Assembly (NCBI GenBank): GCA_903871775.1
Contig: CAIQIA010000017.1
Location: 1-45,454 of the forward strand
DNA: 45,454 nt
Direction of reading: 5' to 3'
From: an uncultured cyanobacterium
GTDB lineage: Bacteria > Cyanobacteriota > Cyanobacteriia > PCC-6307 > Cyanobiaceae
The notes beneath the pieces are model-generated. The model was not told where the DNA came from, ran no database searches, and saw only the letters and a program-made list of their open reading frames with translations. This document shows positions 5,115 through 11,326 of the stretch, one piece after another. The translations under genes and the position numbers were made by a program. Within the stretch, counting starts at the first letter, position 1. Each line of letters opens with the position of its first letter.

Positions 5115-5182
5115 GGCAGCGGGGCGCAGTCGTCCCAAGCTAGGGGCAGCGTTCCTGTCGCCCGGAGGCCGCCGGGGTGTTG

Positions 5183-5887
5183 ATGACCCGCCATCGCTTC
5201 TACGACGGCCTGCACGCCCTCTGCCTGCTGTTGGTCGCCGGCTTCGCCGCCCCCCAGCGCTGGCTGGCGCTGGTGCTGGTGGGGTACCTGCTGCTGGGCC
5301 TGCTGCTGCTGCTGGGCCTGGGCCGCCCGCTGCACAGCGATCCCTGGGGCTGGCGTGACCGCCTGTTTCCCCTGCTCGGCCTCACGACCCTGACCCTGCA
5401 GACCGTCTGGCTGCTGATGCCGATCGGCGCCCGCGCCGGCTCCCTGCCCCTGCTGGGCCTCTGGACCCTCTTTGTGGCCACCGCCTGCCTGCGATTGGTG
5501 CGGCTGCTGAGCCTCGAACGGCGGGTGACGCTGCCGATGATCCGCGGCGCCGCCGCCGGTTACCTGCTGCTGGGCCTCACCGGGGCCCTGCTCATGAATC
5601 TGCTGGAGTGGGAGCGGCCCGGCAGCTTCGCCCTGCTGGCCAACGGGCAGGTGCTGCCGCGGCCCCTGCCCCTCGACGGCAATGCCTGGGCCGGCGATCT
5701 GGGCCGCATCGGCTACTTCGCCTTTGTCTGCCTCACCACGGTCGGCTTCGGCGACATCACCCCCCTGACCCCACCGGCCCGCATGCTCAGCGTCGGCCTG
5801 GCGATGGTCGGGCCCCTGTATCTGGCGGTGGTGATGGGGGTGCTGATCGGTCGCTTCAGCGCCGGCCCCGGCGAGGGCCTGGGCTGA
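5183..5887 (+). CDS. Potassium-channel-like membrane protein
   Basis: Encodes 234 residues from ATG 5183; an in-frame GTG two codons earlier is less likely. Several hydrophobic helices are visible (about residues 10-50, 60-85, 90-108, 125-145), then a pore region with the selectivity-filter sequence TTVGFGD followed by a last helix (MLSVGLAMVGPLYLAVVMGVLIG). This matches the Ion_trans_2 two-helix pore preceded by a voltage-sensor-like bundle, although I see no clear S4 pattern of regularly spaced arginines. Likely a tetrameric K+ channel of the inner membrane. Its stop overlaps the start of the SRAP gene in a TGATG junction, so the two are probably cotranscribed. Confidence 0.85.
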   Translation: MTRHRFYDGLHALCLLLVAGFAAPQRWLALVLVGYLLLGLLLLLGLGRPLHSDPWGWRDRLFPLLGLTTLTLQTVWLLMPIGARAGSLPLLGLWTLFVATACLRLVRLLSLERRVTLPMIRGAAAGYLLLGLTGALLMNLLEWERPGSFALLANGQVLPRPLPLDGNAWAGDLGRIGYFAFVCLTTVGFGDITPLTPPARMLSVGLAMVGPLYLAVVMGVLIGRFSAGPGEGLG

Positions 5888-6579
5888 TGTGCGGCCGCTT
5901 CAGCCTCACCAGCGACCTCGACCGGCTGCTGCCGCGGCTCGGCCGGCGGCTGCCCCCCGCACTGGAGCGCTACCACCGACCCCGGCCGCAGGTGTATCCC
6001 GGCGAACCGGTGCTGGTGCACCGGCTCGAGCACGGCCAGCGCAGCACGGCGCTGATGCTGTGGGGGCTGTTGCCGGCCTGGCGCCGCGATCCCAGCGGCT
6101 GGCGGCGGCCCATCAATGCCCGCGCCGAAACCGTGGCCGAACGGGCCTCGTTCCGTGGGCCCTGGCGCCACCGCCGCGCCCTGCTGCCCGCCGATGGCTT
6201 CTACGAATGGAGCGACCACGGCCAGAGCGACGGCCGCCGACGGCCCTGGCTGATCCGCCGCCGCGACGGGGCCCCCTTCTGGCTGGGCGGCCTGTGGGAG
6301 CGCTGGCTCGGGGCCGACGGCAGCGAACTCGAGACCACGGTGGTGCTCACCAGCGCCGCCAACGGGCTGATGGCCCCCCTGCACGACCGGCAGCCGGTGG
6401 TCATCCCCGACGGCCTCGAGGAGGCCTGGCTCAGCCCCACCGACGGCGCCGCCCTGCGGGCCCTCGAACCGCTGCTGCACCCGTGGGATCCCGCCGGCTG
6501 GGAGGCCGTGCCCGTCAGGAGCGATGGCCCCACACCTCCAGATGCCGATCCCCCAGCGGCCGCACCTGCAGCCCGGTGA
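5887..6579 (+). CDS. SRAP domain protein (HMCES/YedK family)
   Basis: Encodes 230 residues and starts MCGRFSL, so Cys2 becomes the N-terminal catalytic Cys after Met removal. Family motifs follow: INARAET (the conserved Asn), LLPADGFYEW (the conserved Glu) and APLHDRQPVVI (the conserved His). SRAP proteins crosslink to abasic sites in single-stranded DNA and protect them during replication. Start is the ATG of the TGATG overlap with the channel gene. The last ~20 residues (rich in Pro and Ala) read through the 3' end of the convergent RibD fusion gene, with 65 bases of overlap, and look like a non-conserved tail. Confidence 0.92.
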   Translation: MCGRFSLTSDLDRLLPRLGRRLPPALERYHRPRPQVYPGEPVLVHRLEHGQRSTALMLWGLLPAWRRDPSGWRRPINARAETVAERASFRGPWRHRRALLPADGFYEWSDHGQSDGRRRPWLIRRRDGAPFWLGGLWERWLGADGSELETTVVLTSAANGLMAPLHDRQPVVIPDGLEEAWLSPTDGAALRALEPLLHPWDPAGWEAVPVRSDGPTPPDADPPAAAPAAR

Positions 6580-8317
6580 GCCCCGCCTGCAGCAGCTGCG
6601 CCTCCACTTCGGCCGGGGTGAAGGCCGCCGCCAGGGACGCGGCGAAGTCATGGCGCAGCACCGGCGGAGCAGTGGCGGCATGGACGGCCACCAGGGCCTG
6701 GCGCCGGGCCTCATCGTCGGGCCGGCGCAGGTCCCGCAGCAGCACCAGCGCCCCCGGTGCGGCCAGATCGACCAGGGTCCGCCAGAACACGGCGGGATCA
6801 TGCAGATGGTGCAGCAGGCTGTTGCTCACCACCGCATCCCAGGGGCCCTCGGCCCGCAGGGCCCGCGTCGCCTCCGGGTCGAGGGGGAGGCACCCCTGCC
6901 GGTAGGCCAGGCCGGTCAGGGGCGGATCAGCCCGCCGGCGGCGGTCCTCGGCGATGGCGAGCATCGCGGCGGCGCCGTCAAGGCCGAGCAGGCGCGCCGC
7001 CGGCAAGCGCTGGGCCAGCCGCTGGCAGATGTTGCCCGGTCCGCAGCCCAGATCCAGCACCGCCCGGCCGCGGCCGTCGCCCCAGCCAGGGCCCGCCAGG
7101 GCCACGAAGCGGTCCACCAGGGCACCATCCTCGACGGAGAAATCGGCGGCGGCATAGGCGATGGCCTGGTCGTCGCCGTCCATCAGTTCCGGCTCGGGCC
7201 GCCGTGCCGGCGGGCTGGGGAGGGCCAGGCGCCAGAGCCGGTCATGCCCCAGGGCCGTGACCCCCAGATCCGTGGGCCGCGGGGCCGCATCCAGATCCTG
7301 CAGCCCCAGGTCCCCCAGCCCCGTGCGGGCCGGGTCACCCCCCAGCAGCAGCGGCGCCTGCACCAGGGCCAGCTGCTGCACGCAACCCTGCCGCAGGGCC
7401 GCCGCCGCCAGCCCCGGCCCGCACTCCCACAGCACCCGGTTGCAGCCCCGGGCCGCCAGGGCCTGCAGCAGCGCCAGGGGACTCGCCACCGCCAGCGGCA
7501 ACCGTTCGACCCCCAGGCCATCGAGCCAGGCCAGCCCCTCGGCCCCGGGACCATGGGCCACCAGGGTGGGGGCGACGCCGGTGTCCCAGAGCTGCGCCCG
7601 GCGGGGCAGATCGAGGCGGCGGCTCAGCACCACCCGCAGGGGCTCGGGGGTCCGCCGACCGCGGCTGGTGAGCAGCGGATCATCGGCCCGCAGGGTGCCG
7701 CCGCCGATGATCACGGCATCACAGCGGCTCCGCAGCCGGTGCACCCAGTCGCGGGCCGGGGCACCGCTGATCCACTGGCTGGCGCCGTTGGGGAGGGCCG
7801 TGCGGCCGTCGGCGCTGGCGGCCCACTTGAGCCAGCCCTCCGGACGCCCCTGCTGCACCCGATGGACGAAGGCGCTGTTGAGGCGCAGGGCCTCCTGGCG
7901 CCGCACCCCCTCCACCACCGTCAACCCCGCCGCCCGCAGGCGCTCGAGGCCGCGGCCGGCGACCCGGGGGTCGGGGTCGGCCATCGCCACCACCACCCGC
8001 GCCGGCGCCGCCGCCAGCACCGCCTCGGTGCAGGGGGGGGTGCGGCCGTGGTGGCAGCAGGGTTCCAGCGTCACGACCAGCGTGCCGCCCCGGGCGCGGT
8101 CGCCGGCCCGGGCCAGGGCCAGGGCTTCGGCATGGGGCTCCCCCGCCCGCCGATGGAACCCCTCGGCCACGAGCTGCCCCTCGGCATCCAGCACCACGGC
8201 CCCCACCAGCGGGTTGGGGCTGGTGCCACCGTCGGCCAGGGCCGCCAGGCGCAGGGCCCGGTCCATCCAGGCCGCGTCCGACGGCAGCACGTCAGAGGGG
8301 ACTGTCGGGAAGGTCAC
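6515..8317 (-). CDS. ribD: RibD (deaminase/reductase) fused to a SAM methyltransferase
   Basis: One 600-residue frame. Residues ~18-150 are the riboflavin deaminase with the zinc motif PHAE and PCCHHGRTPPC; ~160-368 are the 5-amino-6-ribosylamino-uracil reductase (KWAASADGRTA, ISG, IIGGGTLRADDP, ECGPGLA). A normal RibD ends near residue 368. Here translation continues without a stop into a class I methyltransferase (from Met379, at 7183) with VLDLGCGPGN and SNSLLHHLHDP. Start is GTG 8317, preceded at five bases by AGGA; Met18 is an alternative. RibD catalyses the second and third steps of riboflavin synthesis; the methyltransferase substrate is unknown. The start overlaps the DUF3122 gene by 26 bases. 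The fusion could also be two genes joined by an indel; see findings. Confidence 0.9.
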   Translation of the reverse strand: MTFPTVPSDVLPSDAAWMDRALRLAALADGGTSPNPLVGAVVLDAEGQLVAEGFHRRAGEPHAEALALARAGDRARGGTLVVTLEPCCHHGRTPPCTEAVLAAAPARVVVAMADPDPRVAGRGLERLRAAGLTVVEGVRRQEALRLNSAFVHRVQQGRPEGWLKWAASADGRTALPNGASQWISGAPARDWVHRLRSRCDAVIIGGGTLRADDPLLTSRGRRTPEPLRVVLSRRLDLPRRAQLWDTGVAPTLVAHGPGAEGLAWLDGLGVERLPLAVASPLALLQALAARGCNRVLWECGPGLAAAALRQGCVQQLALVQAPLLLGGDPARTGLGDLGLQDLDAAPRPTDLGVTALGHDRLWRLALPSPPARRPEPELMDGDDQAIAYAAADFSVEDGALVDRFVALAGPGWGDGRGRAVLDLGCGPGNICQRLAQRLPAARLLGLDGAAAMLAIAEDRRRRADPPLTGLAYRQGCLPLDPEATRALRAEGPWDAVVSNSLLHHLHDPAVFWRTLVDLAAPGALVLLRDLRRPDDEARRQALVAVHAATAPPVLRHDFAASLAAAFTPAEVEAQLLQAGLTGLQVRPLGDRHLEVWGHRS

Positions 8318-8798
8318 GCCATTCCTGCACGACGAACGGTGGCACCGGCAGTTCGGTGAACACCCCGGGCAGCTGCAGCCGCAGGGGCCGGTTCTGGCTC
8401 AGATCCGCCAGCAGCGGCGCCAGGTCGAATTCGGCGGCGGCGGCCCGGCCGTCGGCCGCCAGCCGCGGATTGGCGAGGGTCACATCGGCCAGCTCCCAGC
8501 GGTGTTCACCGCTGCGCACCCGCAGGGGGGTGGGGTGGTCGAGCCGCACCTTGCCCGGAAAGCCCACCACCCGCAGCCGCAGGGGTCCCCCGGGGGGGCC
8601 TTCCCGCCAGGCCACCAGCTGCCAGGCCTGGTAGTCGAGGTCCCGCAGGCTCTCGAGGCTGCGCAGCACCGAGGGTTCGCCGTCCCCGGCGGGATGGCGC
8701 TGCAGCTGGGCATGGGCCTCGTCGGCCGGCAGCACCATCACCAGCAGCAGCAGCGTGGCCAGGGCAAGGCTGAGGAGCCGCCGGCGCAGGTCGCTCAT
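8292..8798 (-). CDS. DUF3122 family secreted protein
   Basis: Encodes 168 residues from ATG 8798. An N-terminal signal-like helix (LLSLALATLLLLVMVLPADEAHA) is followed by a domain matching cyanobacterial DUF3122: SLESLRDLDYQAWQLVAWRE, LRLRVVGFPG and the LDHPTPLRV segment. Function is unknown; it is probably exported to the periplasm or held at a membrane. The ATG overlaps the stop of the GH116 gene by four bases (ATGA), so it is likely translationally coupled to it, and its end overlaps the start of the ribD fusion. The longer frame upstream of 8798 lies inside the GH116 gene and is not used. Confidence 0.8.
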   Translation of the reverse strand: MSDLRRRLLSLALATLLLLVMVLPADEAHAQLQRHPAGDGEPSVLRSLESLRDLDYQAWQLVAWREGPPGGPLRLRVVGFPGKVRLDHPTPLRVRSGEHRWELADVTLANPRLAADGRAAAAEFDLAPLLADLSQNRPLRLQLPGVFTELPVPPFVVQEWRDLPDSPL

Positions 8799-11326
8799 GC
8801 CGGCCTCCGCTCGGCGCCGGGGATGGCCTGCCAGCCGGTGTGGGTGGCCCAGAGGGCCCAGAGGGCCATGGCCCGCAGGTAGTGGCAGGCGCGGAAGGTG
8901 TGCTGGGCGGTGATCGCCTCGGGCGTGCGGAACTGCAGGCCCCCCTCGTACACCTGGCGCACCACGGCGCCGGCGATGGCCTCGGCGGTGCGGCCCTCGC
9001 CCATCAGGCGGTAATAGGCCGCCAGGCCGAAGCTGATGCCGGTCCACACCTCCAGCGGGTGGGTGCCGTTGGGGTCGAGGGGGGTGCCATCGCGGCGAAG
9101 GCCGTTGGCCACCCCGAGGCTGCCCCCCGCAAAGCCTTCGAAGCAGGCTTCCCGCACGGCCCCCAGGGCACTGCGGGCACGGTCATCGGCCACCACGGGG
9201 GGCAGGTCCAGCAGGCGGGCGTAGAAGTCGCCGCAGAGCTGATCGGCCATCACCACCGGCGTGCCGCTGCCGGCATCGATGCGGTAGTACTCACCGTTCC
9301 AGAGCAGCCGGTCGAAGTTGGCCCGCGACTGCTCCAGCCAGGCACCGAAATCCCGCTGCTCACGGCTGGTGTCGAGGCCCAGCTCCAGGGCCAGGGTCTG
9401 CCCCATGGCGAGGGCCGCCTCGAGCGCCGCGATCCACAGGGCACCGCAGTAGGCACTCACCCCCTGGAGGGGCCAGTCGTCGAAGGTCTGGTCGGGGGCG
9501 CCGCCATTGTCCGGCAGTCCATCGCCGTCGATGTCGAAGGTCTTGAGCTGGCGCAGGGCCTGGACCGCCGCCGGCCAGCAGTCGGCCAGGAAGCTGAGAT
9601 CGCTGCCGTCGGGGGCCAGCCGGTAGGTGCGCCACACCTGAAGCACGAAGTCGCTGGCCAGGTCCTTCCAGAGGTTGCAGTCCTGGTAGGCGGTGTAGTT
9701 GGTGGCGTCGAAGGGGCGTTCGTTCGGGGCCCCAAGGTCGTGGGGGGTGGCGCCCGCCACCTTGCGGGGGGCCTCCACCCGGCCCCGGCCCTGGGTGAAG
9801 TACCAGCCGATGGGCCGCGGCGTCGGATCGTCGTGGGGGATGGCGCGGGCGAAGCTGCGCAGCACCGCCCGGTCCAGGGCCGGCCACAGCTGCAGCAGGG
9901 CGAAGGACCCGTAGAGGCGCACGTCGATGCTCTCGTACCAGGCGTAGTCGAGGCACTCGAGCACCCCGAAGCGGCCCACCGGATCCCGGGGCCCGGCGGC
10001 GGTCCAGAGGGTGCCGCCGCTGGCCAGGTCGTAGAGCTCGTTCAGCAGGGCCATGCGCAGGGGTTCGGGCAGGTCGCTGCGCTCGAGCACCGGCCCCTGC
10101 CAGCGGTCGATGGCCGCCCGCCATTCGGGCCAGCGGCGCAGCCCCTCGGCGGCGATGGCCGCGGCCGCGTTGCCATCGGCACCGAAGAAATCGGTGTAGC
10201 GCCGCAGGGCCTGGCTGCCGCTGGCAAAGGCCGTCACCGGCAGGTCCCAGCTGATCACCACCGGCAGCTCGCGGGTCTCGCCCGGGGCGAGGGTGAAGCG
10301 CAGGGCCAGGGCGGCACTGGCGGGGTCGTCGCGGCCGCTGCAGCGGTCATCGCTGCTGTCGGGAATCGCCCCCTCCCGGGCAAAGGGCTGCCAGAGCTCG
10401 GCGCCGCTGCCGGCCGGATTCCAGCGGTTGCAGCGCATGAGTTCGACGCCCTCCAGCGCGGCGGGCACCGCCAGGCACCACTGGCCCTGGCCCTCGGCCA
10501 GCGGCTGCGACCGTTCTCCCTCGAGCAGCAGGCCCCGCAGGTCGGCGGTGTCGAGGCGACGGTTGCGCTGGCCTTCGCTGCGACCGATGGCCGGGAAGTA
10601 GTCGTGCTCGGGGCTGCCGTCATCGCGGAAGTGCACCGCCGGCGTGGCGACGGTGTTGGTGAACCAGCCGACGGTGTTGCGCCAGCTGAGCAGCAGCGAC
10701 AGGGTCAGGGGGCGGCGGGTGGGGTTGTGCAGGCTCCAGCGGAACACCGCCAGGGGCAGGCTGGTGTCGCGGTAATCGCCGGGGAGGATCGGGCTGAAGC
10801 TTTCGCAGACCACCTCGGCCCTGAAGACGTGGCTGTAGCGGAACCAGCTCAGGGGGTACCGGGCGCTGTACTGTCCGGTCTGATGCTGGCCGTCGCTGGC
10901 GGGGTACCAGCTCCAGGCCCCGAGGGGGGCACCTTCGCTGCGGCTGTGAGTGTCATCCGTCTGGGGGGCCACGGCGAGGGCGTGGGCGCGGCGATCCTCA
11001 CCGTCGCTCTCGAACAGGGCGAACTGGCAGTCGGGGATGGAGCCATGCCAATGCTCACCGCCGTCCAGGTGCCAGAGGTTGAAGTCACCGCGGGAACTGC
11101 GGCCGATGCAGCCGGCCCCGAAGCCCCCCAGGGGCGCCCCATGCCAGGGGCCGTCGTCGAGGTTGCTGGCGTAGCGGACCGTGTAGGGCCTGTCCCAGCC
11201 GAGGCCGAAGGGACGCGACCAGCTGGCGACGGGTGCCGCATCGGCGACGGTCCCCCGCCGCCAGAGGTCCTGCAGCCCCTTCAGCCCCGGCAGCGCCATG
11301 CCTGTTGCCCCATCGGCGGCCAGCAT
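8795..11326 (-). CDS. GH116 glycosidase, bile-acid beta-glucosidase/glucosylceramidase-like
   Basis: Encodes up to 843 residues. The N-terminal beta-sandwich domain (GBA2_N type, with LGGFGAGCIGRSSRGDFNLW at ~50) is followed by the DUF608 (alpha/alpha)6 catalytic barrel. The likely nucleophile Glu is in YESIDVRLYGSFAL and the acid/base Asp in PDQTFDDWPLQG, by analogy with characterised GH116 enzymes. No signal peptide is seen. The family cleaves beta-glucosides; in cyanobacteria glucosyl-diacylglycerol or storage/osmolyte glucosides are possible substrates, which is inference. Met10 (11299) is an alternative start. The stop overlaps the DUF3122 start. Confidence 0.88.
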   Translation of the reverse strand: MLAADGATGMALPGLKGLQDLWRRGTVADAAPVASWSRPFGLGWDRPYTVRYASNLDDGPWHGAPLGGFGAGCIGRSSRGDFNLWHLDGGEHWHGSIPDCQFALFESDGEDRRAHALAVAPQTDDTHSRSEGAPLGAWSWYPASDGQHQTGQYSARYPLSWFRYSHVFRAEVVCESFSPILPGDYRDTSLPLAVFRWSLHNPTRRPLTLSLLLSWRNTVGWFTNTVATPAVHFRDDGSPEHDYFPAIGRSEGQRNRRLDTADLRGLLLEGERSQPLAEGQGQWCLAVPAALEGVELMRCNRWNPAGSGAELWQPFAREGAIPDSSDDRCSGRDDPASAALALRFTLAPGETRELPVVISWDLPVTAFASGSQALRRYTDFFGADGNAAAAIAAEGLRRWPEWRAAIDRWQGPVLERSDLPEPLRMALLNELYDLASGGTLWTAAGPRDPVGRFGVLECLDYAWYESIDVRLYGSFALLQLWPALDRAVLRSFARAIPHDDPTPRPIGWYFTQGRGRVEAPRKVAGATPHDLGAPNERPFDATNYTAYQDCNLWKDLASDFVLQVWRTYRLAPDGSDLSFLADCWPAAVQALRQLKTFDIDGDGLPDNGGAPDQTFDDWPLQGVSAYCGALWIAALEAALAMGQTLALELGLDTSREQRDFGAWLEQSRANFDRLLWNGEYYRIDAGSGTPVVMADQLCGDFYARLLDLPPVVADDRARSALGAVREACFEGFAGGSLGVANGLRRDGTPLDPNGTHPLEVWTGISFGLAAYYRLMGEGRTAEAIAGAVVRQVYEGGLQFRTPEAITAQHTFRACHYLRAMALWALWATHTGWQAIPGAERRPA

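Follow-up and report, generated by a model that had tools for sequence, protein, structure and literature searches.

This stretch of DNA (the window, all 45,454 nucleotides of it, from an uncultured member of the Cyanobiaceae, here genome G000) carries a gene in which the riboflavin biosynthesis enzyme RibD continues in frame into a methyltransferase (MT). The minus-strand frame at 6515-8317 comprises 600 codons, running from GTG to TGA with no stop in between. The same gene is present in G001 (CAMASU010000118.1), a sister species that provides the only other genome of the genus. The features of the locus are as follows.

6515..8317, minus strand: the fused gene ribD::MT, 600 amino acids, GTG start and TGA stop (6515-6517), same in G001
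7982..8278, minus strand: RibD deaminase domain (PF00383), residues 14-112
7244..7831, minus strand: RibD reductase domain (PF01872), residues 163-358, followed by the last predicted strand, residues 359-365
7208..7219, minus strand: linker PSPP, residues 367-370, in which codon 370 (CCG) lies at the start-codon position of standalone MTs
6518..7207, minus strand: class I SAM-dependent methyltransferase domain, residues 371-600, complete from its conserved RRPEPELM N-terminus to its C-terminus
7181..7185, minus strand: TGATG, read here as the CTG ATG codons of the EPELM motif and not as a stop/start junction
5887..6579, plus strand: SRAP gene (PF02586), convergent with the fused gene, with a tail-to-tail overlap of 65 bp (6515-6579) that is identical in G001
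8292..8891, minus strand: DUF3122 gene, upstream of the fused gene, whose GTG start it covers in a 26-bp overlap; the DUF3122-ribD order is kept in relatives

Both halves of the protein appear complete. Residues 18-360 match the RibD model TIGR00326 (eubact_ribD) with 346 bits against a curated cut-off of 156.35, and the deaminase zinc and catalytic motifs are intact (HAE at 62, PCCHHGRTPPC at 86), as are the substrate motifs. Compared with known RibD proteins (TIGR00326; structures 2g6v and 2b3z), residues 14-360 thus constitute a full-length RibD with its zinc/deaminase and reductase motifs in place, whereas the fused protein differs in bearing an extra C-terminal methyltransferase domain and in lacking a RibD stop codon of its own. 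Since no second RibD was found in G000, where the fused gene is the only one seen, the RibD half is presumably functional in the deamination and reduction steps of riboflavin synthesis. In the second half, the region of residues ~414-540 scores above cut-off with several Pfam models of class I SAM-methyltransferases, with the SAM-binding motif VLDLGCGPGN at 420 and GLDG, the acidic end of strand 2, at 445.

A GH116 gene, the DUF3122 gene, ribD, convergent channel and SRAP genes and ftsH form a neighbourhood that is conserved in relatives, where it has no MT. Between ribD and ftsH, the ion-channel and SRAP genes of this genus stand in the opposite order to that of other Cyanobiaceae (window 5177-6579 versus loci L063, L073, L081 and L087).

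The junction can be located from both sides. On the RibD side, the C-termini of relatives can be aligned in the frame of the fusion up to residue 366-368, with no switch of frame before the junction, and then end within a few to ~40 residues. RibD homology holds this frame to the last strand (about residue 366), and the MT begins only four to five residues later. Nearly all standalone MTs open with M-x-R-x-x-EPELM, their start codon standing nine codons ahead of the M of EPELM. Codon 370 of the fused gene occupies the position of this ancestral start, and it encodes proline (CCG, Pro370) in both fusion species. The ribD stop codon and the MT start codon are both absent from both species, leaving a linker of ~4 residues. 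No in-frame ATG, GTG or TTG occurs from codon 319 to ATG379 in G000, and the matching stretch of G001 has the same pattern.

The original prediction, that RibD is fused in frame to a SAM methyltransferase, is borne out by the 600-residue open frame, the profile matches to both parts and the recurrence of the arrangement in a second species. It had also placed the MT start at Met379, where a TGA overlaps an ATG in the +1 frame. This overlap does exist, at 7181-7185, but Met379 is an internal residue of the conserved MT motif EPELM, and nearly all standalone enzymes start at the position of codon 370. Further, the overlap has an ordinary explanation, because (C/T)TGATG is found at the same internal codons in 19 of the 31 standalone MT genes with a PELM motif.

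The independent assembly of G001 agrees in fused frame, junction and flanking gene order, and the fused proteins of the two species are 87-88% identical. The recurrence of frame, junction and flanking genes in a second species shows that the fusion is more than chance. Differences between the two genes fall by codon position as 1, 0 and 5 in codons 366-380, and as 6, 6 and 20 in codons 330-400. Likewise, dN/dS comes to 0.16 in RibD and 0.30 in the MT, and to 0.08 in codons 366-379, where sites are few. Both measures indicate constraint along the whole fused frame. Given the frame in G001 and the bias of substitutions towards third positions, an indel in one assembly cannot explain the fusion.

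The distribution of the fusion is narrow. Searching 60 relatives and 400 genomes of the family returned exactly two full-length matches to the fused protein, those of G000 and G001. Across the 400 family and 195 class genomes (~600 other cyanobacterial genomes), the fusion was found nowhere besides these two, and a search of genome contigs yielded none beyond G001's own contig. The check for the same fusion in other genomes thus succeeded in G001 and in no other genome searched. Within the scope of these searches, the fusion is confined to a single genus, represented by two species-level genomes. No RibD-methyltransferase fusion was found in the papers searched.

The standalone relatives of the MT suggest where it came from. 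They belong to an unnamed family, recognisable by EPELM. Of the 14 MT loci read in Cyanobiaceae, 11 have the gene flanked by nrdJ (adenosylcobalamin-dependent ribonucleotide reductase) on one side and prfC (release factor 3) on the other (11/19 of all MT loci read). The MT of the fusion is an orthologue of these enzymes over its full length, keeps all of their invariant residues and is mostly 38-57% identical to those of Cyanobiaceae, but unlike them it has no start codon and has relocated to a place directly behind ribD. In G000 and G001, nrdJ and prfC are still neighbours, and the MT is missing from a gap of ~1.28 kb that is filled by a Coq4-family gene and an open frame of 81 codons. No degraded MT was found at the nrdJ-prfC site by tblastn, for which all matches were weak and scattered (best E 0.006). 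The Coq4-family gene encodes 228 amino acids (PF05019) and lies in the gap region L131:3232-4193 on contig 27 of G000, as well as in locus L132. Its close homologues occur only in some Cyanobiaceae genomes, and at other places.

In trees, the fused MT falls among Cyanobiaceae MTs, near those of genomes G006, G019, G025 and G035, with poor resolution; the second tree excludes the G024 row, which is frame-slipped. A horizontal origin of the fused MT was considered and rejected on this placement, poorly resolved as it is. The simplest history would be that, in the ancestor of the genus, the resident MT gene left the nrdJ-prfC site and came to lie at the 3′ end of ribD, and that the two genes were joined in frame with loss of the ribD stop and the MT start. 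A small indel, which had been proposed as the cause of the fusion, does not account for the junction: both codons are missing in both species, after the MT had left its site between nrdJ and prfC.

Structural models are consistent with a protein of this composition. In the model of the fused protein, the deaminase, the reductase and the MT each form a complete module, and the linker at residues 372-378 has low confidence. This model was built on alignment A3, as the larger mixed alignments A1 and A4 misaligned separate MT rows. The MT modelled alone reached a pLDDT of 94. All 22 of the invariant MT positions are kept in the fused MT. Named NCBIfam methyltransferase equivalogs (BioC, UbiG, Tam, CpaM, PrmC and others) gave at best 44.5 bits, against cut-offs of 102.95 to 500. 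When the MT model was compared with known structures, all 1000 of the 1000 chains compared were at Z ≥ 8; the best were methyltransferases, and the fold is of the Rossmann type. The closest fold matches are NovO and CouO (5mgz, 5m58), with Z of 23.6-24.5 and rmsd of 2.5-2.8 over 213-215 residues. Because the nearest folds are those of these C-methyltransferases, the models suggest that the MT acts on a small molecule. NovO and CouO are also among the best sequence matches, although a shared fold gives no substrate, their identity to the fused MT is only 22-24%, and their aminocoumarin-precursor substrates are unlikely in this organism.

Taken together, relocation and fusion most likely produced a three-domain protein (deaminase, reductase and MT). 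We consider it highly probable (about 0.88) that this is a genuine fusion, fixed in one Cyanobiaceae genus after a chance relocation, which would yield one RibD-MT polypeptide of ~63 kDa. Such a polypeptide would combine the deaminase and reductase activities of RibD with a separately folded MT of the small-molecule type. The MT would probably keep its ancestral substrate, and the fusion may act mainly by co-expression or tethering, adding no new pathway step.

The choice offered by the original prediction, a true fusion or two TGATG-coupled genes obscured by a sequencing indel, thus falls on the side of fusion, as RibD homology stays in frame and the sister species has the same junction. For the alternative, with the ribD TGA overlapping an MT ATG, there is the overlap in the +1 frame itself. 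Against it stand the identical frame of the sister species, RibD homology in frame 0 to residue 366, the position of ATG379 inside EPELM, the presence of TGATG at the same place in most standalone genes with the motif, and the excess of third-position substitutions in the fused frame (20 against 6 and 6, codons 330-400). A hidden frameshift or a pair of overlapping genes is refuted by the sister species and the methyltransferase alignment, and we regard its probability as negligible. A related proposal accepts the fused frame and has the MT made mainly, or additionally, as a shorter protein, through initiation at the internal ATG379 or proteolysis of the linker. ATG379 does lie in the reading frame, and little order is predicted for the linker, but a start at this codon would delete E375-L378 of EPELM. 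Of these residues, E375 is the same in all 26 of the 26 MT sequences compared, and P376 and E377 are almost invariant. Moreover, no Shine-Dalgarno-like sequence lies ahead of ATG379, and a shorter MT is decidedly unlikely.

A fusion might also reflect a functional link, with the MT methylating a riboflavin-pathway intermediate, a flavin or a pterin, or controlling a reactive product of RibD, and the fusion channelling or coupling the two activities. Fusions of riboflavin genes to the COG3236 N-glycosidase are known, and such fusions of B-vitamin enzymes have sometimes revealed linked functions (PMC4921024). The joined deaminase and reductase of RibD are another known fusion among riboflavin enzymes. 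The present gene resembles them in joining a partner domain to a riboflavin biosynthesis enzyme; it differs in that its partner is an uncharacterised methyltransferase by Pfam and not a member of COG3236. The likeness of the MT fold to small-molecule methyltransferases, NovO and CouO foremost, would also suit such a link. However, the usual location of the MT in Cyanobiaceae is between nrdJ and prfC, and across the 19 standalone MT loci read, ribD never appears as its neighbour. Conversely, no ribD locus examined has an MT nearby except the fused ones. Further, nearly every cyanobacterium has ribD, whereas the MT has a patchy distribution beyond the Cyanobiaceae, and only a single fusion event is seen. 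We consequently hold a functional link to be unlikely.

The suggestion in the original prediction of a methylation step tied to flavin or pterin intermediates finds no support beyond the fusion, as the MT of relatives is not near riboflavin genes; a flavin or pterin role is possible but unsupported. It seems quite improbable that the fused MT modifies a substrate or product of RibD, whether flavin or pterin, which would imply an undescribed methylated flavin-pathway compound in this genus, and perhaps in all Cyanobiaceae with the standalone enzyme.

The gene is a clear case of two enzymes fused in one lineage, since the original location of the MT, the site it vacated and the loss of both the start and the stop codon can all be seen. 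It also directs attention to a methyltransferase, as yet uncharacterised, that almost all Cyanobiaceae (picocyanobacteria) possess, and to whose substrate the fusion offers one testable, weak hint. At a strict threshold, MT matches were obtained in most Cyanobiaceae and in only some other cyanobacteria. Within the family, the EPELM-type enzyme extends to streamlined genomes and conserves its position between nrdJ and prfC (for example in loci L120, L122, L124, L168 and L171).
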